From positions 1 to 64,000 of the forward strand of contig JACWAH010000019.1 in assembly GCA_014874365.1 (NCBI GenBank): a DNA stretch of 64,000 nt, written 5' to 3'. A model generated the notes under the pieces. The model searched no databases, was not told the DNA's origin, and worked only from the letters and a program-made list of their open reading frames with translations. Shown in pieces: positions 40,605 through 51,834 of this stretch (position 1 is the stretch's first letter; each line of letters begins with the position of its first letter). This DNA comes from Thermoplasmatales archaeon (lineage in GTDB: Archaea > Thermoplasmatota > Thermoplasmata > Thermoplasmatales > Thermoplasmataceae). A program made the translations under genes and the position numbers.

Positions 40605-40864
40605 TTCTTCTCTTCCATACCGATAGTCGATTGGTGATACAGTACTGGTCAGAATTCATCCCCCGCAGTAAAACACACAATATTGGATTGTGATTTATCA
40701 GTTTGATGGCACATTCATATGGCAATAGACTAATCAGGATTTAATTTTAGCTTTTCATCTGAAGCAAATTCAATTCCTAATGACTTTCATTGGGAATTAC
40801 AATAGTTTTTACCGTAAAATTGAATTCAAAAAGAGATATATTCTACAAATATATAGAGAGAAGA

Positions 40865-41860
40865 TTGAGAAAGTCCATATTACGCAGAAAAGACAGTTCG
40901 GTGGCTGTAATTATTGGCGCGCTCCTCACGTTTGTGATTATTTCATCACTGCTCGGAGCATATGTAATATGGTATGTACCCGCGAATGGACAACAGCTTG
41001 ACATCCAATATATAAGCGATACTGAGAATTCCTTCCTTCGTTTACAAAATGAGATCAGTAATTCGTCCCCATATCTCAACGAATTCGTCCCCCAAAGTTT
41101 TACGCTTGGAATTGACGGGTCCCCTCCATTTTCATCATCGTCCGATTCAACTATAGGCTACAGCAGTTCTATGGGTTTTCAGACCACCCTGAATTATTCT
41201 ATGGAAGTCACCGTTTTCTATGATGGCCATATCAGAACCATCCCAATAAATGTGAACTCCCATGGAAACGGAGAGATTTATCTGTACCCGCAAACCCCAT
41301 TTGCCACGCCTACCAATTTCTATTTCCAGGATGATACCATTTTAATGCAACAGCCAGGATCTAACTATTCATCTATTGTTGGGTCACTACCGTTTTCAAT
41401 GGGCAAGAACACTACAGGAGGTACATACCTTAACGCGTCCCAGTTTATAGTGACCGGGCAGGACACTTCTGAAGGAGGATACGGAGTTACCCTGCTTACC
41501 CTGCAGTACTCAGACATTAATCAGAGCATTTTCTATAGGGGGGAGAATGTAACGGTTTCCAATCTTACGGGTGGGTATACATCTGCAGTAGTCACCAACA
41601 TAACGCTTAATTCCTTCTATTACAACATTACCAGCCCGCAAATTCTGGCCTGGAATTCAGCTCTTGCAGCAAATTACAACACGTCTGCGGTCACAGATAT
41701 GGGCATAAAAACTCAATTTACATGGCAATTCACAAGCTTTGGGTTCGTCAGTGTTACCATTTCCTCTACACAGAATTCGATGTCACTATATACAACCCAG
41801 ACTATATACCCATATTCAGCCAATTTAGGCTATTTCGCAATGAAGTTACTGCAATTATAA
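40865..41860 (+). CDS. Archaeal pilin-like surface protein, scaffold only
   Basis: About 331 residues from the TTG at 40865 (LRKSILRRKDSSVAVIIGAL), with a GATATATTC box about 25 bases before it. A short basic leader, DSSVAVIIG and one hydrophobic helix (LLTFVIISSLLGAYVIWYV) form the archaeal type IV pilin-like N-terminus; the rest is a Ser/Thr/Asn-rich exported beta domain with many N-x-S/T sites. The two following genes share the N-terminus and the FTLGIDG and FYFQDDTILMQ regions, but this one lacks the propeller. Confidence 0.72.
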   Translation: MRKSILRRKDSSVAVIIGALLTFVIISSLLGAYVIWYVPANGQQLDIQYISDTENSFLRLQNEISNSSPYLNEFVPQSFTLGIDGSPPFSSSSDSTIGYSSSMGFQTTLNYSMEVTVFYDGHIRTIPINVNSHGNGEIYLYPQTPFATPTNFYFQDDTILMQQPGSNYSSIVGSLPFSMGKNTTGGTYLNASQFIVTGQDTSEGGYGVTLLTLQYSDINQSIFYRGENVTVSNLTGGYTSAVVTNITLNSFYYNITSPQILAWNSALAANYNTSAVTDMGIKTQFTWQFTSFGFVSVTISSTQNSMSLYTTQTIYPYSANLGYFAMKLLQL

Positions 41861-41909
41861 TGTATATAAGACTTGAAAAGTTTATTTCTTCCTTCTTATT
41901 ATACCGATA

Positions 41910-44900
41910 ATGCAGAAAAAGGACCCGGCGGTTTCAGAGATTATCGGAACCTTGCTGGTCTTTGCAATGGTGATTACCACCTTCACTGCCCTTGAAGCGT
42001 GGTATGTACCAAGTACGGAAGGTACATATGAACAGCAATTTCAAACTGAGTCCCAAACTGCGTTAGCATCTCTAATTTCACAGATTGAATCTCCCTCGCT
42101 GTCATATGGCGACGTTATTTCCCAGAATATCCCTCTTGGAATTCAGGGAACGTTGTTTTCCCCTTCCCAATCAACCTCACTTTCGTATCAACCGAGTGGG
42201 TTTTCTTCCAGTTTATCGTATGGTTTAGGAGTTAACTATAAGCTATTGGAAAACACAGTGCCTTCGGCCATAACAAACGAAGTTGTTGGAACTATACCAG
42301 GTATGAATGGAATTGGCCCGACTCAGTCGATCACATTTAATGGAATAACGTACATAACTGACTTTGCTTCTAACAGCATGGAGGAGATCAACGCCACTTC
42401 TCACGTACTGATCGGCAATTACGGGGTGGGGCTTCATCCAGCTGGGATAGCCTATGATAAAGATAATCACCTTTTGTATATTTCTAATTTCTATGAATAT
42501 CTGAACTATCAAGGAAAATACTATTCCACAATCACGGTCTTCAATCCCGCTACTAACTCTATTGTTAAAACGATTAACTCGGATGGATTGAATACGGACA
42601 TCCTGTATCCAAGCGGACTCGTTTATGTTCCCCTGCCATTTGAAAACGGAATAGGATACCTGTATGTTTCTGTACTTATCCCAGTTTCAAATTCTGGCAC
42701 ATATTTACCAGGAGTCGCTGTGATAAACACAACCAATTATCAAGTTGCCAACTTGATTAAACAGACTCAACTCGTGCCGAAGGGTTTAGAAGTAAGTAAT
42801 GTCGCGCTAGGACCACCTGATTCAAGTACAGGTACAGTGGTGCCGGAGATATGGTTCACAGATTATTGGCAGAACAATTTAACAGTTCTACTGGTGGGCT
42901 CTCCAAGTTCAAGTGGATTCGAGAACCCCAGTAACATCACAGTACCCGACGTTATGAGCCCATACGGCATTGCGTATGATAGCGTAACCTCAGACATTTT
43001 AGTGACTAACTCTACTAATTTGTTAACTATGAGTGGCGTGCCCCACCAGTATACTCCTATCACACGAGGGGAATCTCAAAATGGAAACATAACGGTGATC
43101 TCGACACTACTATCATTGTCAGGACTCACACCGGGAGCCGGTATTTCCAACTTGCCTACACCGAACATTCCAGAGCCAGTCGCAATAGCAGTTACGGTTT
43201 CTGGTGGCACTTCAACTGCTTACGTTTCTGGGTATACTACCCTTTATAATGCAACTGGTGATTTTTCTTATTCTTCTATCGAAGCATTTGACTCGCATTA
43301 TTATTTGACTGGCTACAACTATTCTCTCAACAACGCCGAGAGCTACAACTATCCCAATGGAACTATTAGGTTCCTGCAGGGACCAGACTCTCTGAATATA
43401 TACGGTGATCAGCTAATAGTTTCTGACAACCTCACCGATAATACCCTGTTCCTTTCTCAATCTGGCGGGAAGACATCAGCTAGCAACGTATGGAATAATC
43501 CTTTCAACAAGCCCATTGCTATTTCTTACATTAACGGAACGAATTATCTGGCCGTTGTCAATGCGGGATCTGAAAGTGTCAACATTTTAGACACAGTAAC
43601 CAGTGATTCCGTTGTGGCGAGTTTTTATGTTGGTCAGCAACCAACTAGTGTAGCATATGACCCAGCCAACAAATATCTATACGTCACAAATAGTCTATCA
43701 GATAATGTAACTGTTATTGACCCTTCTCTCAGTGATTTTTCGCATAGTAAAACAGTCGCGAATATCACGCTTCCATTCGGAGATGATCCTTCCTATGTGG
43801 TCTATGATCCGCACAACCAATCCATGTATGTTGTCGATAATGGCACCGGAAATTTAACTCAAATTGTCAACACTAGTGTGGTAAACGAATTTTCAATAAA
43901 TTCTCCGAATGCGGCTTTAAATCACGTTTTGCAATATTTAAAGGGAAACAATGGTAAACATGGATTCGTTTATGCGAACCAAAATGGATCTGAGGAATTT
44001 TACGTCACCAATGAACAAAGTATTAATTACCTCGAAGTCAGAGTCAACGGTACAGGGTCAGTACACATCGGAATTGGTACTACGAACATTGGAGGAAGCA
44101 ATCCTTGGGTATCATCCGGAGAGCAAACTCAATCGATCATCAATAACCATAAGAAAGGAGAATGGGTCACCATAAAATTTAGTAATACATTTCTTGCACC
44201 AGGCACGAAATACTATGTAAACGTTGAGTGGGCATCAGGTCACGTTACCTGGGGTTATACGGAGACTCCTAACTTTATGTCGAAGTCTGGATATTACTTG
44301 GAGGACTACTTCTACTACAACGGCGTGCTTACAGGCGACAATAATACACCGTATGGCTACGAAATAGGTTTCTCCAACCAACCAACCACTGGTCCAACTG
44401 CTCCATTTCCATCTCCAACCGCTGCCGTGATCAGCCCTATCAATAACATATTGTACGTTGCCAATTATGGGGGCAGTAATGTTACTGTTGTTAATCTGTC
44501 AAACACCCAATACCCGGTTGTCCTTTGGGTACCAACTGGATTAATGCCAAGAAGTTTAGCCTATGATCCGCTTGATAACACTATTTTTGTTGGAAACTCG
44601 GGATCTGGGAGCGTCACTGTCATAAATGCCTTGAATCTTGCAGAGCGAACTTTTGGGGTTGGATCCGGCGCATTCCCACTTGGATTAGTGATGGACGTGG
44701 GGAATGGTTATGTTTACGTTGGCAACAATGGATCCAACAACATAACCCTGGAAAATACGTTCACCTCGCAAACAATTAACTCGATCGCGACCGGAATTAC
44801 TCCTTCTGCACTAGCCTATGATGCTCTTAATGGCTTGATCTATGTTCTGGACACTGACTCTAACCAGATGACAATCATCAATGGAGGTAGCCTCTATTTC

Positions 44901-45515
44901 AATGGCCAAAACGGAATTGTTGAAACACCAGTATTTACGGGCAAGGGGCAGCTTGTATCTTATGGCGATACATCGTTTGTAACACCCGTAGCATTCTACC
45001 TGCAGGACGGGATGATACTTTCAAACTATTCCTCATCCCAGTATGTTAAGAGTTCTGCAAACGTTCCAGTTTCCGTTGTTCAGAGTTCAGGAAAGATCTA
45101 CTTTTCTTCATTTATTCTAAATCTTGGGGGTTCACCATCATCAATATCAGGCTTAGATACTACTAGTCTTGAGCTAAGCGTTTCACAATACTCTGCCAAT
45201 CATGTCTATCAGGGACAGCAATTCACACATTATGATCTCTACGGCAACCCGTATCCTGCGATGGTTACCAATTTAACTCTTACATACTTTGACTATACAA
45301 TTACTACAAATTATGCGTCGGAAATTAACCAAATATTATATAACGAATTTAATGGTAGTTTAAGCGGAAGCTTAAATTCCTGGGACTTCAGCGGATTTCC
45401 CATCCATGTTTCACTTAACTCGCAGGGAAATTATTTGACTGTGGATAGCACCCAGCCTATTTCATTATACTCTGTTAACCTGATCTATGAGGATCTCACC
45501 GTGGTAAATGTCTGA
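41910..45515 (+). CDS. Large pilin-like surface protein with YVTN beta-propeller
   Basis: 1201 residues starting MQKKDPAVSEIIGTLLVFAM: a pilin-like leader and membrane helix, then an exported part. After the shared QNIPLGIQGTLFSPSQSTSL region, roughly residues 120-960 contain YVTN-type beta-propeller blades, such as ISYINGTNYLAVVNAGSESV, YDPANKYLYVTNSLSDNVTV and YDPLDNTIFVGNSGSGSVTV. The scaffold then resumes (GKGQLVSYGDTSFVTPVAFY). A segment near 44000-44350 looks like an inserted carbohydrate-binding-type beta sandwich. Role in cell surface attachment or recognition is inference. Confidence 0.8.
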   Translation: MQKKDPAVSEIIGTLLVFAMVITTFTALEAWYVPSTEGTYEQQFQTESQTALASLISQIESPSLSYGDVISQNIPLGIQGTLFSPSQSTSLSYQPSGFSSSLSYGLGVNYKLLENTVPSAITNEVVGTIPGMNGIGPTQSITFNGITYITDFASNSMEEINATSHVLIGNYGVGLHPAGIAYDKDNHLLYISNFYEYLNYQGKYYSTITVFNPATNSIVKTINSDGLNTDILYPSGLVYVPLPFENGIGYLYVSVLIPVSNSGTYLPGVAVINTTNYQVANLIKQTQLVPKGLEVSNVALGPPDSSTGTVVPEIWFTDYWQNNLTVLLVGSPSSSGFENPSNITVPDVMSPYGIAYDSVTSDILVTNSTNLLTMSGVPHQYTPITRGESQNGNITVISTLLSLSGLTPGAGISNLPTPNIPEPVAIAVTVSGGTSTAYVSGYTTLYNATGDFSYSSIEAFDSHYYLTGYNYSLNNAESYNYPNGTIRFLQGPDSLNIYGDQLIVSDNLTDNTLFLSQSGGKTSASNVWNNPFNKPIAISYINGTNYLAVVNAGSESVNILDTVTSDSVVASFYVGQQPTSVAYDPANKYLYVTNSLSDNVTVIDPSLSDFSHSKTVANITLPFGDDPSYVVYDPHNQSMYVVDNGTGNLTQIVNTSVVNEFSINSPNAALNHVLQYLKGNNGKHGFVYANQNGSEEFYVTNEQSINYLEVRVNGTGSVHIGIGTTNIGGSNPWVSSGEQTQSIINNHKKGEWVTIKFSNTFLAPGTKYYVNVEWASGHVTWGYTETPNFMSKSGYYLEDYFYYNGVLTGDNNTPYGYEIGFSNQPTTGPTAPFPSPTAAVISPINNILYVANYGGSNVTVVNLSNTQYPVVLWVPTGLMPRSLAYDPLDNTIFVGNSGSGSVTVINALNLAERTFGVGSGAFPLGLVMDVGNGYVYVGNNGSNNITLENTFTSQTINSIATGITPSALAYDALNGLIYVLDTDSNQMTIINGGSLYFNGQNGIVETPVFTGKGQLVSYGDTSFVTPVAFYLQDGMILSNYSSSQYVKSSANVPVSVVQSSGKIYFSSFILNLGGSPSSISGLDTTSLELSVSQYSANHVYQGQQFTHYDLYGNPYPAMVTNLTLTYFDYTITTNYASEINQILYNEFNGSLSGSLNSWDFSGFPIHVSLNSQGNYLTVDSTQPISLYSVNLIYEDLTVVNV

Positions 45516-45523
45516 GGATGCTG

Positions 45524-47587
45524 ATGAAAAGAGTATTCAATAAAGAGGATTCCGCCGTGTCGGAAATCATTGGAACGCTTTTTGTATTTGTTATCATCGT
45601 AGGGATATCCAGCGCCTTTGTTTTCTGGTACGTACCGTTCTCTGGTACAACATACGATAACCAGTATGAATTGACAACTAAGCAGGCCCTGTCAGGATTT
45701 TCCAATCAGTTACTTTCAAAAGACATTCAGAATAATTCCATCATCTATCAAAATGTGCCGCTAGGGATACAGGGTGATTTCTTCAGCAGCCCAACACCCA
45801 CTTCGATTATGTATTCAAATAATTTCAATGTTTCAATGCAATATAATGTTACCATTGAAGCTACCTTCAGTGGCAATACTCCTCCCGGAGAGATTTCCAA
45901 TAAACTTGTAGGTTCCATACCAGTTGATGGCCAAAATCCTAACGGCGTGGTTGTCGATACTGTAGACAACCTGATTTTTGTGTTGAACTCAAATTATTCT
46001 TACGATCATTCGCATCCCTTATCACCTGAGCAAGGAGGAATAACTGTCCTTAGCGGCGCTACGGATTATTATAATAGACCGGTGGGTAACTTGAGCCTGT
46101 TTGGCTACCCTACGGGAATATCTTTTGACCCGAAAAGCGATTTTCTTTTCGTAGCGCAGGGAAGCATTTCTTCCGGATTTAATTTTAATAACTATCTCAA
46201 CACACCGGCCTTTCAGACTGGATTCATGCAGGTGATAGACGTACATACAATGAAAGTTGTTCATACCGTTTATTTTTCATCTGTACCTTATGATGTAACT
46301 TATGTCCCGTATTTGAACACCTTGATGATGACCATTCAGTATTACAACGGGGGAGGTGCTGTTGATTCCCTTAACGCAACCACGTTTGCACAAACGGGTT
46401 ATATTACAGTCGCCCCTTCCGGAAGCCCTATTATCCCATCCAGCATTTCCTACGACCCGGCGAATGGGTATGTATACGTAGCCTTGGGCACGCCTGACGG
46501 AATAGCAGTAATAAATCCCATTACAGATGATATCGTTGATAACATCATAACAAATGCTGCGACCACACCTTGGAGCCTTGCCTATGATACGTCTGACGGG
46601 TACATCTTCGCCACAAATTCATATGCGGGGCCCGAGCAAGCGTCCACACAGTTGCTCATCGTGAACGGGGCCAATAATCAACTTGTTACATCTTACAGCA
46701 ATCTTAATACTCCAACCTCGCTGGTTTACGACAGGGCAAATCATTACGTGTACGTGGCGGACTACGGGAACAGCAATATAGAGATATACGATGGAACAAC
46801 TGGTCGGCACGTAGGAATTGTGAATGGCTACCCCATTGGTGCTGGTCCGGGAAACGGGCCTAACGCAATGGATTGGAACCCGATCACAGGGCAGATATTT
46901 GTACCAAACTGGAACGCTGGAACGGTTTCCATCATTTCTGGCAGTACAAGTATAACCAATCAGTTTGCTTCTGCTGACAACAACTTCAAGCCAGTCGATA
47001 ATCTGAAGGGAAGTGGACAGATACAGGCATTCGGGAATACTCAATTTACCTCCCAGAACTATTATGATCTGCAGGACGGTACCTTGATACAGCAGGGATC
47101 TGGTAATGCATTCAGTCAGATACTCGGAAACCTTCCGCTGGACATAACCCAAAATGGAGGATTGGTTAGTTTAGACTCAACAATTGTGAATTTGTTTGGA
47201 GCCGAATCTTCAGTTTCACAATCCGGGAATTACCTGCTGTCCGGGACACTAACGAATCTCAATCTGCAAAGCTGGACCCATGGATTGACCCTGAATTTTG
47301 TATACAATGGCCAGCAGTATTCTGCAACAGTAACGAGTATACTATTGAACAGTCTCAAATTTACCATTAACACGACATCCGTTGCTGCCTGGAACTATTC
47401 CATTTACGAAAAGTATAACCCAAGTTCGAATTCCTATAATCCGAATCCAGCTGGAACTATCTGGCAATTCAGCGCTCTTCCAATAACTGTAAGGGTGGGT
47501 ACGGACTCAATAATTATATCAACTAATAGTCCGTTCCTTCTTCAAGCCTTTCAATTTGATTATGTTAGTGCCTTGACGGATATCTAG
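45524..47587 (+). CDS. Pilin-like surface protein with YVTN beta-propeller
   Basis: About 687 residues from the ATG at 45524 (MKRVFNKEDSAVSEIIGTLF), with GAGG six bases upstream as a Shine-Dalgarno site; the upstream ATG at 45518 is also possible. Pilin-like N-terminus, then QNVPLGIQGDFFSSPTPTSI, then a shorter propeller region (VPYLNTLMMTIQYYNGGGAV, YDPANGYVYVALGTPDGIAV, YDRANHYVYVADYGNSNIEI) before the scaffold resumes at GSGQIQAFGNTQFTSQ. It starts within 10 bases of the previous stop, so it is co-translated with it. Confidence 0.8.
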   Translation: MKRVFNKEDSAVSEIIGTLFVFVIIVGISSAFVFWYVPFSGTTYDNQYELTTKQALSGFSNQLLSKDIQNNSIIYQNVPLGIQGDFFSSPTPTSIMYSNNFNVSMQYNVTIEATFSGNTPPGEISNKLVGSIPVDGQNPNGVVVDTVDNLIFVLNSNYSYDHSHPLSPEQGGITVLSGATDYYNRPVGNLSLFGYPTGISFDPKSDFLFVAQGSISSGFNFNNYLNTPAFQTGFMQVIDVHTMKVVHTVYFSSVPYDVTYVPYLNTLMMTIQYYNGGGAVDSLNATTFAQTGYITVAPSGSPIIPSSISYDPANGYVYVALGTPDGIAVINPITDDIVDNIITNAATTPWSLAYDTSDGYIFATNSYAGPEQASTQLLIVNGANNQLVTSYSNLNTPTSLVYDRANHYVYVADYGNSNIEIYDGTTGRHVGIVNGYPIGAGPGNGPNAMDWNPITGQIFVPNWNAGTVSIISGSTSITNQFASADNNFKPVDNLKGSGQIQAFGNTQFTSQNYYDLQDGTLIQQGSGNAFSQILGNLPLDITQNGGLVSLDSTIVNLFGAESSVSQSGNYLLSGTLTNLNLQSWTHGLTLNFVYNGQQYSATVTSILLNSLKFTINTTSVAAWNYSIYEKYNPSSNSYNPNPAGTIWQFSALPITVRVGTDSIIISTNSPFLLQAFQFDYVSALTDI

Positions 47588-47731
47588 AACTGGAAAAACA
47601 TAGTTCATTTGCAAAAAGCCGTGGGGCACTACTATTCGTTCCGTAGCTTTAATTTCTTGGGTTTGGCTTAATTAGTTTTCATGAATCAAGCTTTCGGCTA
47701 AGCTTTATTATTGGCCAGCGTTACTGTATTT

Positions 47732-48283
47732 GTGGTCGAGAACTTTACCCGGCTGGCTGCAAGGCATGACTCTCAATTCGTGAATCTGCCCGAGGTATTC
47801 GTGACAAAATTGGCACCCTATATGCTCAGCGGGGAAAATATTGAGATTTCCCTTCGATCCTGGGGGCTCACGCATATTGAAGGATCAAACGCCAACGTCA
47901 AAGGTAGGAAACAAGGGAGGCAATATGGCCACGCCTGGTTAATTATAACAAATGCAAGGCTTATGATTGCTTCCAGGGGTCCCTTATCTTTCGAAGTAAG
48001 GTCATTCCAATTCAATCAGATCTCTTCTATTGAGATACAGGAGGGCGTCATCGATGATGTCCTGATGATTTCTGGTTTAGGGGTTAGAGAAATATGGGTC
48101 TTTAGGAGGAAAGTGAGGCCTCTTGTAAAAGCAATTTCTGTCGTGATTCAAAACAGGATTTCCAAAAATGGCACCACTGGGATCCCGAATATTCATGAAG
48201 ACCCTCTTGGCACACTGAAATTAAGACTCGCCAGAGGCGAGATCTCTGAAAAGGAGTTTGAGAACCTGAGAAACCTGCTTTAG
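47732..48283 (+). CDS. PH-domain protein with C-terminal SHOCT motif
   Basis: About 184 residues from the GTG at 47732; a TTG at 47711 is also in frame, but a TTTATTA box at 47704 fits the GTG. The middle (YMLSGENIEISLRS, HAWLIITNARLMIASRGPL, QFNQISSIEIQEG) is a bacterial-type PH domain. The end (DPLGTLKLRLARGEISEKEF) is a SHOCT motif, a short helical segment that often sits at termini of membrane-associated proteins. Function unknown. It converges on the giant repeat protein gene. Confidence 0.7.
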   Translation: MVENFTRLAARHDSQFVNLPEVFVTKLAPYMLSGENIEISLRSWGLTHIEGSNANVKGRKQGRQYGHAWLIITNARLMIASRGPLSFEVRSFQFNQISSIEIQEGVIDDVLMISGLGVREIWVFRRKVRPLVKAISVVIQNRISKNGTTGIPNIHEDPLGTLKLRLARGEISEKEFENLRNLL

Positions 48284-48297
48284 AAGTCCCGCCCGGG

Positions 48298-51200
48298 TCA
48301 TTTCTTCTTCTTTTTCTGGGACATTGCAACTGCACCGGCAATGGCAGCCCCCACAACACCCACCGCAACGATCACCACTATAGCGTAGCTTGGAAGGTGG
48401 AATCCTGAACTACCGGACGAGGGAGGCGGCGTATATGAACTGGAATTTGAGACGAAGTAAATATGAATCGCAACACTTTTTCCGCTAATATTGAAGGGAC
48501 TGTGGGGCAGGCTGGTAGATTCAGTGTAACCCGGTATCTGAGTAACTGCATAAGTATACGTTCCATTGAAAAGTGGGTAAATTCTTATGCTGGTGGAATT
48601 ATTTGACCACATTGAATACAATTGACCATTCAGGTTTACCGACCATAGCGTTCTTGTCGCAAGACCGCTTTCAGTGAAAGTTACATTGAAAACAACCGCT
48701 TCGAAAGATACGTTGAAGGTTAAGTTTCCGGCATTTACTGTAAAGTTACCCCCATATACTGAAGGTTCATAATCACTATTCAGGGATGAGATGGAATAAC
48801 TGTATGAACCGTTCGGAAGCGAAAATGAGATTGCAGACGAAGCCGATGTGATTTCTTTACTAAATGTAACGTTTGTAACATTTACAGTCCATTTAAGACC
48901 TGCCCCCAAACCGCTTTCATTAAAATTCACTGCAAATTTTTGCTCGTGGAAAGTAATATTGATCACAAATGGTTGGCCAGTTATGTCAAAGGTACCGTTT
49001 CTTACGTTCGGATAATAGTTGATATTGACGTTTGGAACCAGATATGAATAGGTGCCGTTAGGGAGTTCAGTTGAAATATTGGCAGTATTGGAAGAAAGTA
49101 GTTTCTGGTTTACATATGCGGACCAACTCGTTCCTGCAGGAAGACCAGATTCTGTGATAGTTACGGGATATACGAAATCACTGAAATTAACTGTAAGGGC
49201 AACTGAACCGTTCAGGGGAACATACATTAGCGACGGTATAGGGTAGTATGTGAAATGGGTGGAACCGATAATTACCGGCAGGAATGCAAGAGAATAGGTA
49301 CCATTGGGAAGGGTGAGTGTTGTGCTACTGGATGGCACAGTTACGGGTTGGGATCCCGAAATTGAGTATTCCCAGGAAGTTCCTGCAGGCAAATTATTTT
49401 CTGTTAGTGTGAGGGCATCCATCACGCTGTGAAAATGTAAATAAACTACAAGTCCAGGTTGACTGTTGTTGACTGCAACAACTCCTCCAGAAACGTTTGA
49501 AACATAAAAGATCAATTCGTCTGGAACAACATAGGGGTACGTCCCATTTTCAAGGTTGATCGACACTACGCCAGTTTTATCAGAATAAAAAGTCAGCCCC
49601 ATTAGCTGCACATTCCAATCAGTTCCTGCTGGAAGGCCAGACTCAACAAAATTGACAGAATATGCGATGCTGACAAATTGAATCTTTACAATCAGAGGAT
49701 TTCCAGAAACACTGACGATTCCAGCGGAAACATTGCTCAGGTAGCCTGTCGGGCCATTGATCGTATATTGATATGTACCGTTAAGAAGGTTGACGTTTAC
49801 TTCACCGGTTGAATTTGAGCTATAAAATGTTCCACTGAGGTTGACTCCCCAGGATGAACCAGCAGGGAGACCAAGTTCCGTAAATGTAACTGGATACTCA
49901 ACAGCAAAAAAGGTTACATTGATACTAGTGGTAGTGCCATTCACAATGAAAAACCCGGAACGAACCACTGGATTATATACTGTGCTATTTGTCTTAATCG
50001 GTTGAACAAAATAATAGTAAGAGCCATTTGAAAGCGAAGTGGAAATATCACCATATGCGTTCGAACTATATGACGCCGTTCCGTGATAGAAAGTAGTTAT
50101 GCCTACGCTCCAGGTTATACCTGAAGGCAGGCCTCTCTCAGAGAAGCTCACCTGGTAGTAAAAGGGAACGAATGTAAGGTTCATTTCTTTGTATCCAGGA
50201 CTTACGGTAACGGATCCTGATCTTTCTATAGGTATGTAATTGCCGGAGGAGGATACCCAGAAGGTGAAAGTGCCTGTTGACATACCGGTAAAAGTGACCA
50301 GTCCACCTGCATCAGAACTCTCGGTAACATTCCTGTTTGTAGAATTGAGCGTTACGGAATAGCCAGAACCATATGGCAACCCGTTTGAAATGAATTGAAG
50401 TTCATTGTAGCTTCCATTGAAGGACCCGGTTGGACTTCCAGTCCCATTAAACGATAAGTTTACCGTAAAGACTTTGCCATCCGCACTAGTTTTGAGTGGT
50501 TTCGATGCATTTGCTGAAGGCAATACTTCAAAATCCTGAGAATTAATCACGCTGTATGTTTCTGTTTTGTTTGCCGGCAGGGTGAATACTATCGAGTTAT
50601 TGTCAGTGAACTCCTTGAGACCACTGATATTAACCCCCCACACGAAACTAGTCCCGCCACGAGGCAATACTTTAGCAAAAAATTTGATATATGAATAATT
50701 CTGTACAAAGAGCACCGGTTCAGTATATTGATTTGAATTAACCGTTATGTTCTTCGCAGGATACATATAGAGATAGCCTCCAACAGAAGGGATGCTGAAC
50801 TTATACAGTCCATTGGCAACGAAAAATTCCATCGAACTCCTGTTGGAAGACTGAATAATTCCAGAGAGGTTCACCGACCATATAGATGCATTGGATGAAG
50901 AGGTAGAGGGAAGCCCGGTTTCATTAAAATAAAGAATGTCGTATCCTGCTGTGAAGCTGACAGAAATGTTGTGGTAGGATTTATTGGAATAAACCGTGCC
51001 TGACGATGGAGTTGGATTGTAGGCTACCACTCCAGCCAAATTTGAAGATTCGCTCAACTGTATGCTGTAATGATAAGTGGCATTCTTCAAATTAAACACT
51101 ATGCTGGAATTATCGCTGTGGCTCACCATAACGCCATTGATGGATACTCCCCATTGCGTACCTTTAGGTAATCCCTTCTCAAAGAAGACTATTTTTTCCA

Positions 51201-51834
51201 GGTTGCTGGTGAAGATTTCGTGTATGGCGAGGTTATTCCCGGAAACAACAAAGCTTCCGGTACCAAGGGAAGGATAATATCCTGTTGCAGTGGTATTCGC
51301 CGAATAGTTATATGTTCCATTTTGCAGCTTGAAAACTATTTGAGATGTATCGCCTCTTTCAGTAATATTATCAACCTTGACTTGCCATGAAGAACCTGGC
51401 AATAAACCGGTTTCGGAAAAAGTGACGGAGTAATAGGTGCTCGAAAACAGCACATTAATAATTACATCAGTTGCAGTAACCGTTATATTTCCGTGATTTG
51501 GAGTCGCCACAATGCCGGACAGGTTCCCAATACTGTATGAGTAATTACCAGCTGGGGCAAAGAAGTTTATCACGCTGTTATCGCTTCTGATTGTGGTATT
51601 GTCAAAGGTAACAGCCCAGACCACATTGTTTGCCCCAATGGAAGGTAGACCCGATTCATAAAAAGACACCTCGTAAGATGCAGATGCACCGGTTAAAGGA
51701 GTGGATGTGTTCCGGAAGGATGCCGGGTTTTCGGAGAAGAAAATGCCGGTGGGCGCGACAAACATTATGGCAGCAAAAATTGACACCAAAATCGCGACCA
51801 TAGCTTTATTTCTGGAAATAATCCTCTTTAGCAT
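48298..51834 (-). CDS. Giant repeat surface protein with C-terminal membrane anchor
   Basis: 1178 residues. An N-terminal signal segment (MVAILVSIFAAIMFVAPTG) is followed by about 13 tandem beta repeats of 75-90 residues with the consensus VxFxExGLPxGTxWxVxxxG and later LxNGTYxYxI; examples are TFTELGLPAGSSWGVNLSG and ITESGLPAGTSWSAYV. A Pro/Ser linker (TPPPSSGSSG) leads to a hydrophobic helix IVVIVAVGVVGAAIAGAVAM and a Lys-rich tail, so it is anchored in the membrane with the repeats outside. Similar repeats occur in other Thermoplasmatales and Sulfolobales surface proteins. Confidence 0.82.
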   Translation of the reverse strand: MLKRIISRNKAMVAILVSIFAAIMFVAPTGIFFSENPASFRNTSTPLTGASASYEVSFYESGLPSIGANNVVWAVTFDNTTIRSDNSVINFFAPAGNYSYSIGNLSGIVATPNHGNITVTATDVIINVLFSSTYYSVTFSETGLLPGSSWQVKVDNITERGDTSQIVFKLQNGTYNYSANTTATGYYPSLGTGSFVVSGNNLAIHEIFTSNLEKIVFFEKGLPKGTQWGVSINGVMVSHSDNSSIVFNLKNATYHYSIQLSESSNLAGVVAYNPTPSSGTVYSNKSYHNISVSFTAGYDILYFNETGLPSTSSSNASIWSVNLSGIIQSSNRSSMEFFVANGLYKFSIPSVGGYLYMYPAKNITVNSNQYTEPVLFVQNYSYIKFFAKVLPRGGTSFVWGVNISGLKEFTDNNSIVFTLPANKTETYSVINSQDFEVLPSANASKPLKTSADGKVFTVNLSFNGTGSPTGSFNGSYNELQFISNGLPYGSGYSVTLNSTNRNVTESSDAGGLVTFTGMSTGTFTFWVSSSGNYIPIERSGSVTVSPGYKEMNLTFVPFYYQVSFSERGLPSGITWSVGITTFYHGTASYSSNAYGDISTSLSNGSYYYFVQPIKTNSTVYNPVVRSGFFIVNGTTTSINVTFFAVEYPVTFTELGLPAGSSWGVNLSGTFYSSNSTGEVNVNLLNGTYQYTINGPTGYLSNVSAGIVSVSGNPLIVKIQFVSIAYSVNFVESGLPAGTDWNVQLMGLTFYSDKTGVVSINLENGTYPYVVPDELIFYVSNVSGGVVAVNNSQPGLVVYLHFHSVMDALTLTENNLPAGTSWEYSISGSQPVTVPSSSTTLTLPNGTYSLAFLPVIIGSTHFTYYPIPSLMYVPLNGSVALTVNFSDFVYPVTITESGLPAGTSWSAYVNQKLLSSNTANISTELPNGTYSYLVPNVNINYYPNVRNGTFDITGQPFVINITFHEQKFAVNFNESGLGAGLKWTVNVTNVTFSKEITSASSAISFSLPNGSYSYSISSLNSDYEPSVYGGNFTVNAGNLTFNVSFEAVVFNVTFTESGLATRTLWSVNLNGQLYSMWSNNSTSIRIYPLFNGTYTYAVTQIPGYTESTSLPHSPFNISGKSVAIHIYFVSNSSSYTPPPSSGSSGFHLPSYAIVVIVAVGVVGAAIAGAVAMSQKKKKK

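Follow-up and report, generated by a model that had tools for sequence, protein, structure and literature searches.

The three tandem proteins p1, p2 and p3, encoded on a 64,000 nt stretch of a Thermoplasmatales archaeon contig (the window; Table 1), are probably modular subunits of a type IV pilus system that display binding heads, a reading to which we assign a probability of about 0.68. In the carrier common to all three, a β-rich domain comes after a pilin helix of 57 residues; in p2 and p3 this domain is split at the turn of one β-hairpin by inserts of 900 and 384 residues, respectively. An earlier, sequence-only reading of the region had proposed a single membrane-anchored scaffold with exchangeable heads. 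The one insertion point implied by this proposal holds in alignments, structural models and 69 related proteins; exchange is apparent on an evolutionary scale only, and the gene order and co-occurrence presented below make 'subunit of a type IV pilus system' a better description than 'membrane-anchored scaffold'.

Table 1. Coordinates of p1–p3 and their component parts within the window
Feature	Coordinates	Strand	Basis
p1, headless scaffold pilin-like protein, 331 aa	40865..41860	+	ORF, TTG start; full length matches p2/p3 ends
p1 N-terminal scaffold: end of basic leader, pilin helix (residues 10–66), first strands	40886..41209	+	N profile match, residues 8–115; model
p1 short hairpin, residues 116–133, turn ~119–122	41210..41263	+	N/C profile boundaries; model strands 106–119 / 122–135
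p1 C-terminal scaffold β domain	41264..41836	+	C profile match
p2, scaffold plus 900 aa head, 1201 aa	41910..45515	+	ORF, BLASTP, profiles
p2 N-terminal scaffold	41916..42236	+	Profile residues 3–109, E 1e-39
p2 head, YVTN/YncE-type β-propeller blades plus extra domain	42237..44936	+	TIGR02276, PF10282, PF21783; 10 blade matches
p2 extra β-rich domain in head, residues 661–825	43890..44384	+	Profile comparison of inserts
p2 C-terminal scaffold	44937..45488	+	Profile residues 1010–1193, E 1e-57
p3, scaffold plus single propeller, 689 aa	45518..47587	+	ORF, BLASTP, profiles; AlphaFold
p3 N-terminal scaffold	45542..45856	+	Profile residues 9–113, E 4e-38
p3 head, modelled seven-bladed β-propeller, 28 strands (residues 129–479)	45857..47008	+	AlphaFold model; Foldseek
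p3 C-terminal scaffold	47009..47566	+	Profile residues 498–683, E 1e-58

The three ORFs follow one another on the same strand, with gaps of 49 bases (p1–p2) and 2 bases (p2–p3). For p1, the mechanical ORF start is an alternative upstream TTG at 40790, which would extend the protein to 356 aa. Directly downstream of p3 lies a 190 aa protein (47711–48283, + strand) with weak matches to bPH_3 (a bacterial PH-domain) and SHOCT.

The shared scaffold is borne out by BLASTP, profiles and AlphaFold models alike. Composition-corrected BLASTP aligns the whole of p1 to both ends of p2 (N part, E = 3e-12; C part, 3e-15) and to both ends of p3 (2e-15 and 6e-12, respectively), and an alignment of p1 with the concatenated terminal parts of p2 and p3 spans 346 columns, with approximately 50 invariant positions. 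Thus, p1 represents the insert-free scaffold, which p2 and p3 interrupt at an identical point. This agrees with the original proposal that conserved segments lie close together in p1 and are parted by a propeller in the other two proteins. The basic leader and pilin-like helix are likewise present in all three; the motifs put forward as common to them are altered in p1, which reads SVAVIIG for AVSEIIG, LGIDG for LGIQG and FYFQDD for the FYLQDG segment near the end.

Structural predictions place the insertion more precisely. The p1 model (pLDDT 86.7, from a 26-row alignment) has a helix at residues 10–66, strands at 74–81, 95–100 and 106–119 / 122–135, and then further strands, with a short helix at 260–271 preceding the last of these. 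In the p3 model (pLDDT 78.8, 12-row alignment) a helix at 9–65 and strands at 75–80 and 95–117 are followed by the 28 strands of the head (129–479), after which a strand at 493–508 opens the same series as in p1, including the short helix at 622–633. The elements flanking the insert therefore occur in the same order and with near-equal lengths, placing the p3 head at the turn of one β-hairpin; the corresponding position in p1 is occupied by its short hairpin (residues ~116–133), as judged from profile boundaries and the model. A fold common to p1 and p3 before and after the propeller, on which the sequence-only reading depended, is accordingly found, and its shared insertion point is confirmed by both alignment and structure prediction. 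The scaffold itself carries no established name. A Foldseek comparison of the p1 model with the PDB returned only meaningless matches (TM about 0.1) and no fold name, a sequence comparison of the scaffold with the PDB gave no convincing match, and Pfam and NCBIfam yielded no match for p1 and recognized nothing but the propeller in the other two proteins. A link to DUF7289 (PF23960) was considered and set aside; the one member shown gave a weak match (E 0.17) that covered the helix alone.

With regard to the heads, the p3 insert models as a seven-bladed propeller, each blade being four-stranded. Its best Foldseek match is Escherichia coli YncE, with target-based TM values reaching 0.84, and an archaeal YVTN/PKD surface protein (1l0q) ranks fifth. 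The fold is thereby shared with YncE and YVTN propellers (3vgz, 1l0q); those are stand-alone or S-layer proteins, whereas the p3 propeller sits inside a pilin-like scaffold. Three scaffold-free YVTN propeller genes are found elsewhere in the same genome (G000:C3:82–2004, G000:C19:102010–103782 and G000:C13:109266–110153). An all-against-all BLAST of inserts shows the p2 and p3 propellers to be homologous. The p2 insert, initially described as a propeller with another domain, does contain the extra domain (165 aa); the remaining 735 aa, with about ten detectable blades, amount to roughly twice one propeller, and the head is probably therefore two propellers, with the extra domain seemingly lying within the second. 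This domain is confined to p2-type proteins from the closest relatives of the window (L053, L055 and L056), and occurs in none of the other inserts searched, although its profile weakly matches the type-B heads described below. NCBIfam offers no name for either of these elements.

The scaffold extends well beyond the window. Within the order, its profile matches 80 of 117 genomes, and a profile of the headless form matches 299 of 400 Thermoplasmata genomes across the class, with most family members being headless and about 300–350 aa in length. Within the window's own family (f1), the three-gene cassette recurs in the same order in G076 (Thermoplasmata archaeon YP2.bin70), G077, G085, G086, G089, G091, G110, G111 and G113; a related-locus search with p3 matched only the sister MAG JAKATN01. 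Scaffold members with other inserts exist. BLAST comparison of the inserts divides those at the shared hairpin into three unrelated groups, namely the YVTN propellers of cassette slots 2 and 3, the type-B heads of genera g4 and g6 (~650 aa, Ig/β, no Pfam matches), and DUF2341-like heads in slot 1 of G077, G110 and G113, which fall below the Pfam cut-off. A lectin domain of the LamG type (PF13385, best E 2e-29) occupies a second site in the C-terminal scaffold of family f3 (L082–L085), corresponding to the turn around p1 residues 182–186 as judged by hand comparison with headless relatives. The presence of such different domains within the scaffold of relatives suggests that the pili of these archaea are fitted with a variety of binding heads. 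Type-B heads also have an Ig-like 'ESGL' module in common (BLAST E as low as 7e-12) with a surface protein of the window (48298–51834, − strand; 1178 aa), which has repeated 'ESGLP' Ig-like units and a C-terminal membrane anchor, and the cluster to which it belongs adjoins the scaffold cassette in 11 of the loci compared. A 13,409 aa open frame in G048 that starts with a scaffold was considered as a giant adhesin and dropped, as the frame runs through an N stretch.

The connection to pilus machinery is most direct outside family f1. In 25 of the 25 loci with enough flank, following gene order as far as the contig or stretch reaches, the scaffold gene is adjacent to, and co-oriented with, an ATPase–TadC–TadC–ATPase cluster (T2SSE ATPases); amongst these loci, L104 repeats L079. 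The arrangement varies, with the scaffold being the last gene of the pilus operon instead of the first in L086, and the directly adjoining gene being TadC in L088 and L089. The pilus operons of L082–L085 encode the LamG-headed scaffold, and the ATPase gene shares its first 4 bp with the end of the scaffold gene in L083 and L084. None of the f1 scaffold loci has pilus machinery adjacent. The window's genome (G000) encodes its ATPase–TadC–TadC–ATPase cluster on another contig (G000:C16, ~14.3–19.9 kb; L099:6319–11876), with a small PilA-like pilin upstream (L099:3641–4174). Despite this separation, scaffold and T2SSF (counts of which include archaellum platforms) agree in 67 of 77 f1 genomes: 48 have both, 19 neither, nine T2SSF only and one the scaffold alone (Fisher p 2e-10, uncorrected for phylogeny). 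At genus level the agreement extends to 19 of 19, with 15 having both and four (G041–G043, G060–G069, G087, G088, G094 and G095) having neither, which suggests joint loss of the pilus system in these four genera.

The leaders and helices of the proteins themselves point in the same direction. Basic leaders are followed by class III-type sequences (KDSS/VAVIIG, KDPA/VSEIIG and EDSA/VSEIIG, with predicted cleavage at the slash), after which both the p1 and p3 models show the 57-residue helix. Of 26 headless members, 13 match Pilin_N (PF07790) weakly, the best with E 3e-4; p1, p2 and p3 give no match, and the Pfam cut-off is reached by no scanned member with scores shown. A search for an A24 prepilin peptidase found none in the assembly of the window's genome (26 contigs, 96 % complete); the enzyme is present in two congeners, G076 and G077, and its absence is probably an assembly gap.

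Taken as a mechanism, the carrier, with its class III-type leader, long N-terminal helix and β domain, would be made as a prepilin and then processed, before being handled by the ATPase/TadC machinery encoded elsewhere in the genome. An outward-facing β-hairpin of its globular part would tolerate large inserted domains, such that p1 would serve as the plain carrier, and p2 and p3 as carriers of propeller heads that may bind other cells, glycans or surfaces. Incorporation into the filament would most likely be as a minor or tip subunit, because the heads are bulky.

How the heads came to differ can be assessed using a maximum-likelihood tree of the scaffold (69 rows, 285 columns). Type-B heads form one clade (100/100), as do DUF2341 heads (100/99), and propellers need two changes, or one by starred branches. 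In total, the five head states require six changes, against a minimum of four and a shuffled mean of 33; with each type nearly a clade, free exchange of heads is ruled out. As head types are largely clade-specific, heads seem to have been gained rarely and then inherited, and the sequences point to acquisition or replacement a few times at the same hairpin, followed by inheritance. The tree itself does not separate gain from loss; a headless ancestor is favoured because headless members occur throughout the class. It might instead be argued that the propeller was acquired once and that p1 lost it, in which case the cassette would be one old duplicated fusion and no platform for exchange. The homology of the p2 and p3 propellers fits this account, and grouping all propellers in one clade is not rejected (p-AU 0.37). 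It sits poorly, however, with three unrelated insert classes at the same hairpin, two of which are clades and the third compatible with one, and with headless scaffolds found class-wide. Furthermore, the slot-1 group (95/92 support) mixes headless proteins, including p1, with DUF2341-bearing ones, and uniting every headed f1 protein in one clade is rejected, if only marginally (p-AU 0.048). A single old fusion is therefore very unlikely.

A second alternative concerns the filament, rather than the heads. The proteins could be membrane-anchored surface proteins, acting as an S-layer substitute or in a 'bindosome'-like manner, with the pilin-type leader and helix borrowed as an anchor and no filament formed. 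Class III signal peptides do occur on non-pilin binding proteins in Sulfolobus, and bindosome proteins likewise depend on pilus-type machinery of this kind. The large size of the headed proteins, the location of f1 scaffold genes away from the machinery, and the repeat surface protein as conserved neighbour would all suit this explanation. Against it, outside f1 the scaffold is encoded together with pilus machinery, even when bearing a LamG head, and within f1 it is missing from exactly those genera that lack platform genes. Anchoring without a filament is consequently doubtful as a general account, although p1–p3 could remain single-pass membrane proteins; the likeliest role of the scaffold is that of a type IV pilus system subunit.

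Modular pilins are already known in bacteria. For archaea, full-text literature searches, with subscription papers mostly outside their reach, returned no description of pilins with inserted heads, nor of a family in which one carrier has internal insertion sites. Should the pilus reading be correct, archaea share the bacterial strategy in another form, with defined hairpins taking up propellers, lectins and Ig-like domains. It would also offer specific leads on the binding targets of Thermoplasmata pili, and put a name to a class-wide gene not recognized as its own family by Pfam or NCBIfam.

The closest taxonomic comparison is to the CdiP pili of Cuniculiplasma divulgatum, from the same archaeal order. 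In the accessible portions of their description, these are built by a two-ATPase, two-platform machinery, as in the scaffold-linked cluster, and end in narrower hooks whose subunit is not named; CdiPB (135 aa) is the filament subunit and CdiPA a possible minor pilin, their genes being adjacent to each other and about 500 kb from the pilus machinery (PMC12448462). Those same portions differ from our findings in making no mention of the scaffold family (PMC12448462). In G048 the platform genes are at 678 kb and the scaffold starts at 456 kb; if this genome represents C. divulgatum, its scaffold gene would be distinct from cdiPA and cdiPB. On the pilus reading, headed scaffold pilins, with their two insertion hairpins, would be candidates for the unexplained hook; that they form the distal tip of double-ATPase Thermoplasmata pili, and so the Cuniculiplasma terminal hooks, is a tentative proposal and on balance unlikely. 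A two-ATPase locus with one pilA-like pilin is also described for Aciduliprofundum (PMC4858521). From the same source, arCOG02911 is a proposed euryarchaeal minor pilin that is all-β, ~250–550 aa and prone to duplication (PMC4858521). Its linkage to ATPase/TadC systems, all-β character, variable length, tendency to duplicate and predicted minor pilin role all resemble the scaffold, which may belong to this group, being likened by description only; inserted heads are not described for it.

Amongst bacterial systems, GspK of type II secretion has an α-domain inserted in the pilin β-sheet (PMC8179133), and so resembles the present proteins in holding a large domain inside the β part, instead of appended to it. 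It differs in having a single helical domain, in being bacterial, and in that no interchange of heads is described. Modular pilins offer the broader parallel, with over 1,200 bacterial proteins in 264 architectures listed via motif IPR012902 (PMC8179133, PMC9934059); as this survey relied on a bacterial motif, the archaeal scaffold family was probably missed. In Streptococcus sanguinis PilB (vWA) and PilC (ConA-like lectin), a functional module is grafted after the pilin part (PMC8179133, PMC9934059). These share with the scaffold a pilin module joined to a bulky domain that is not specific to pilus biology and is thought to be pilus-displayed, a feature present here in the propeller, LamG and (below cut-off) DUF2341 heads, and LamG/ConA-type lectins appear repeatedly amongst such modules. 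However, the PilB and PilC module is C-terminal and connected by a short linker, whereas here it lies inside a β-hairpin, with the scaffold continuing afterwards, and one conserved carrier takes several heads at one site. The scaffold is therefore a variant sharing the working principle of modular pilins, as distinct from a member of the PilB/PilC type.
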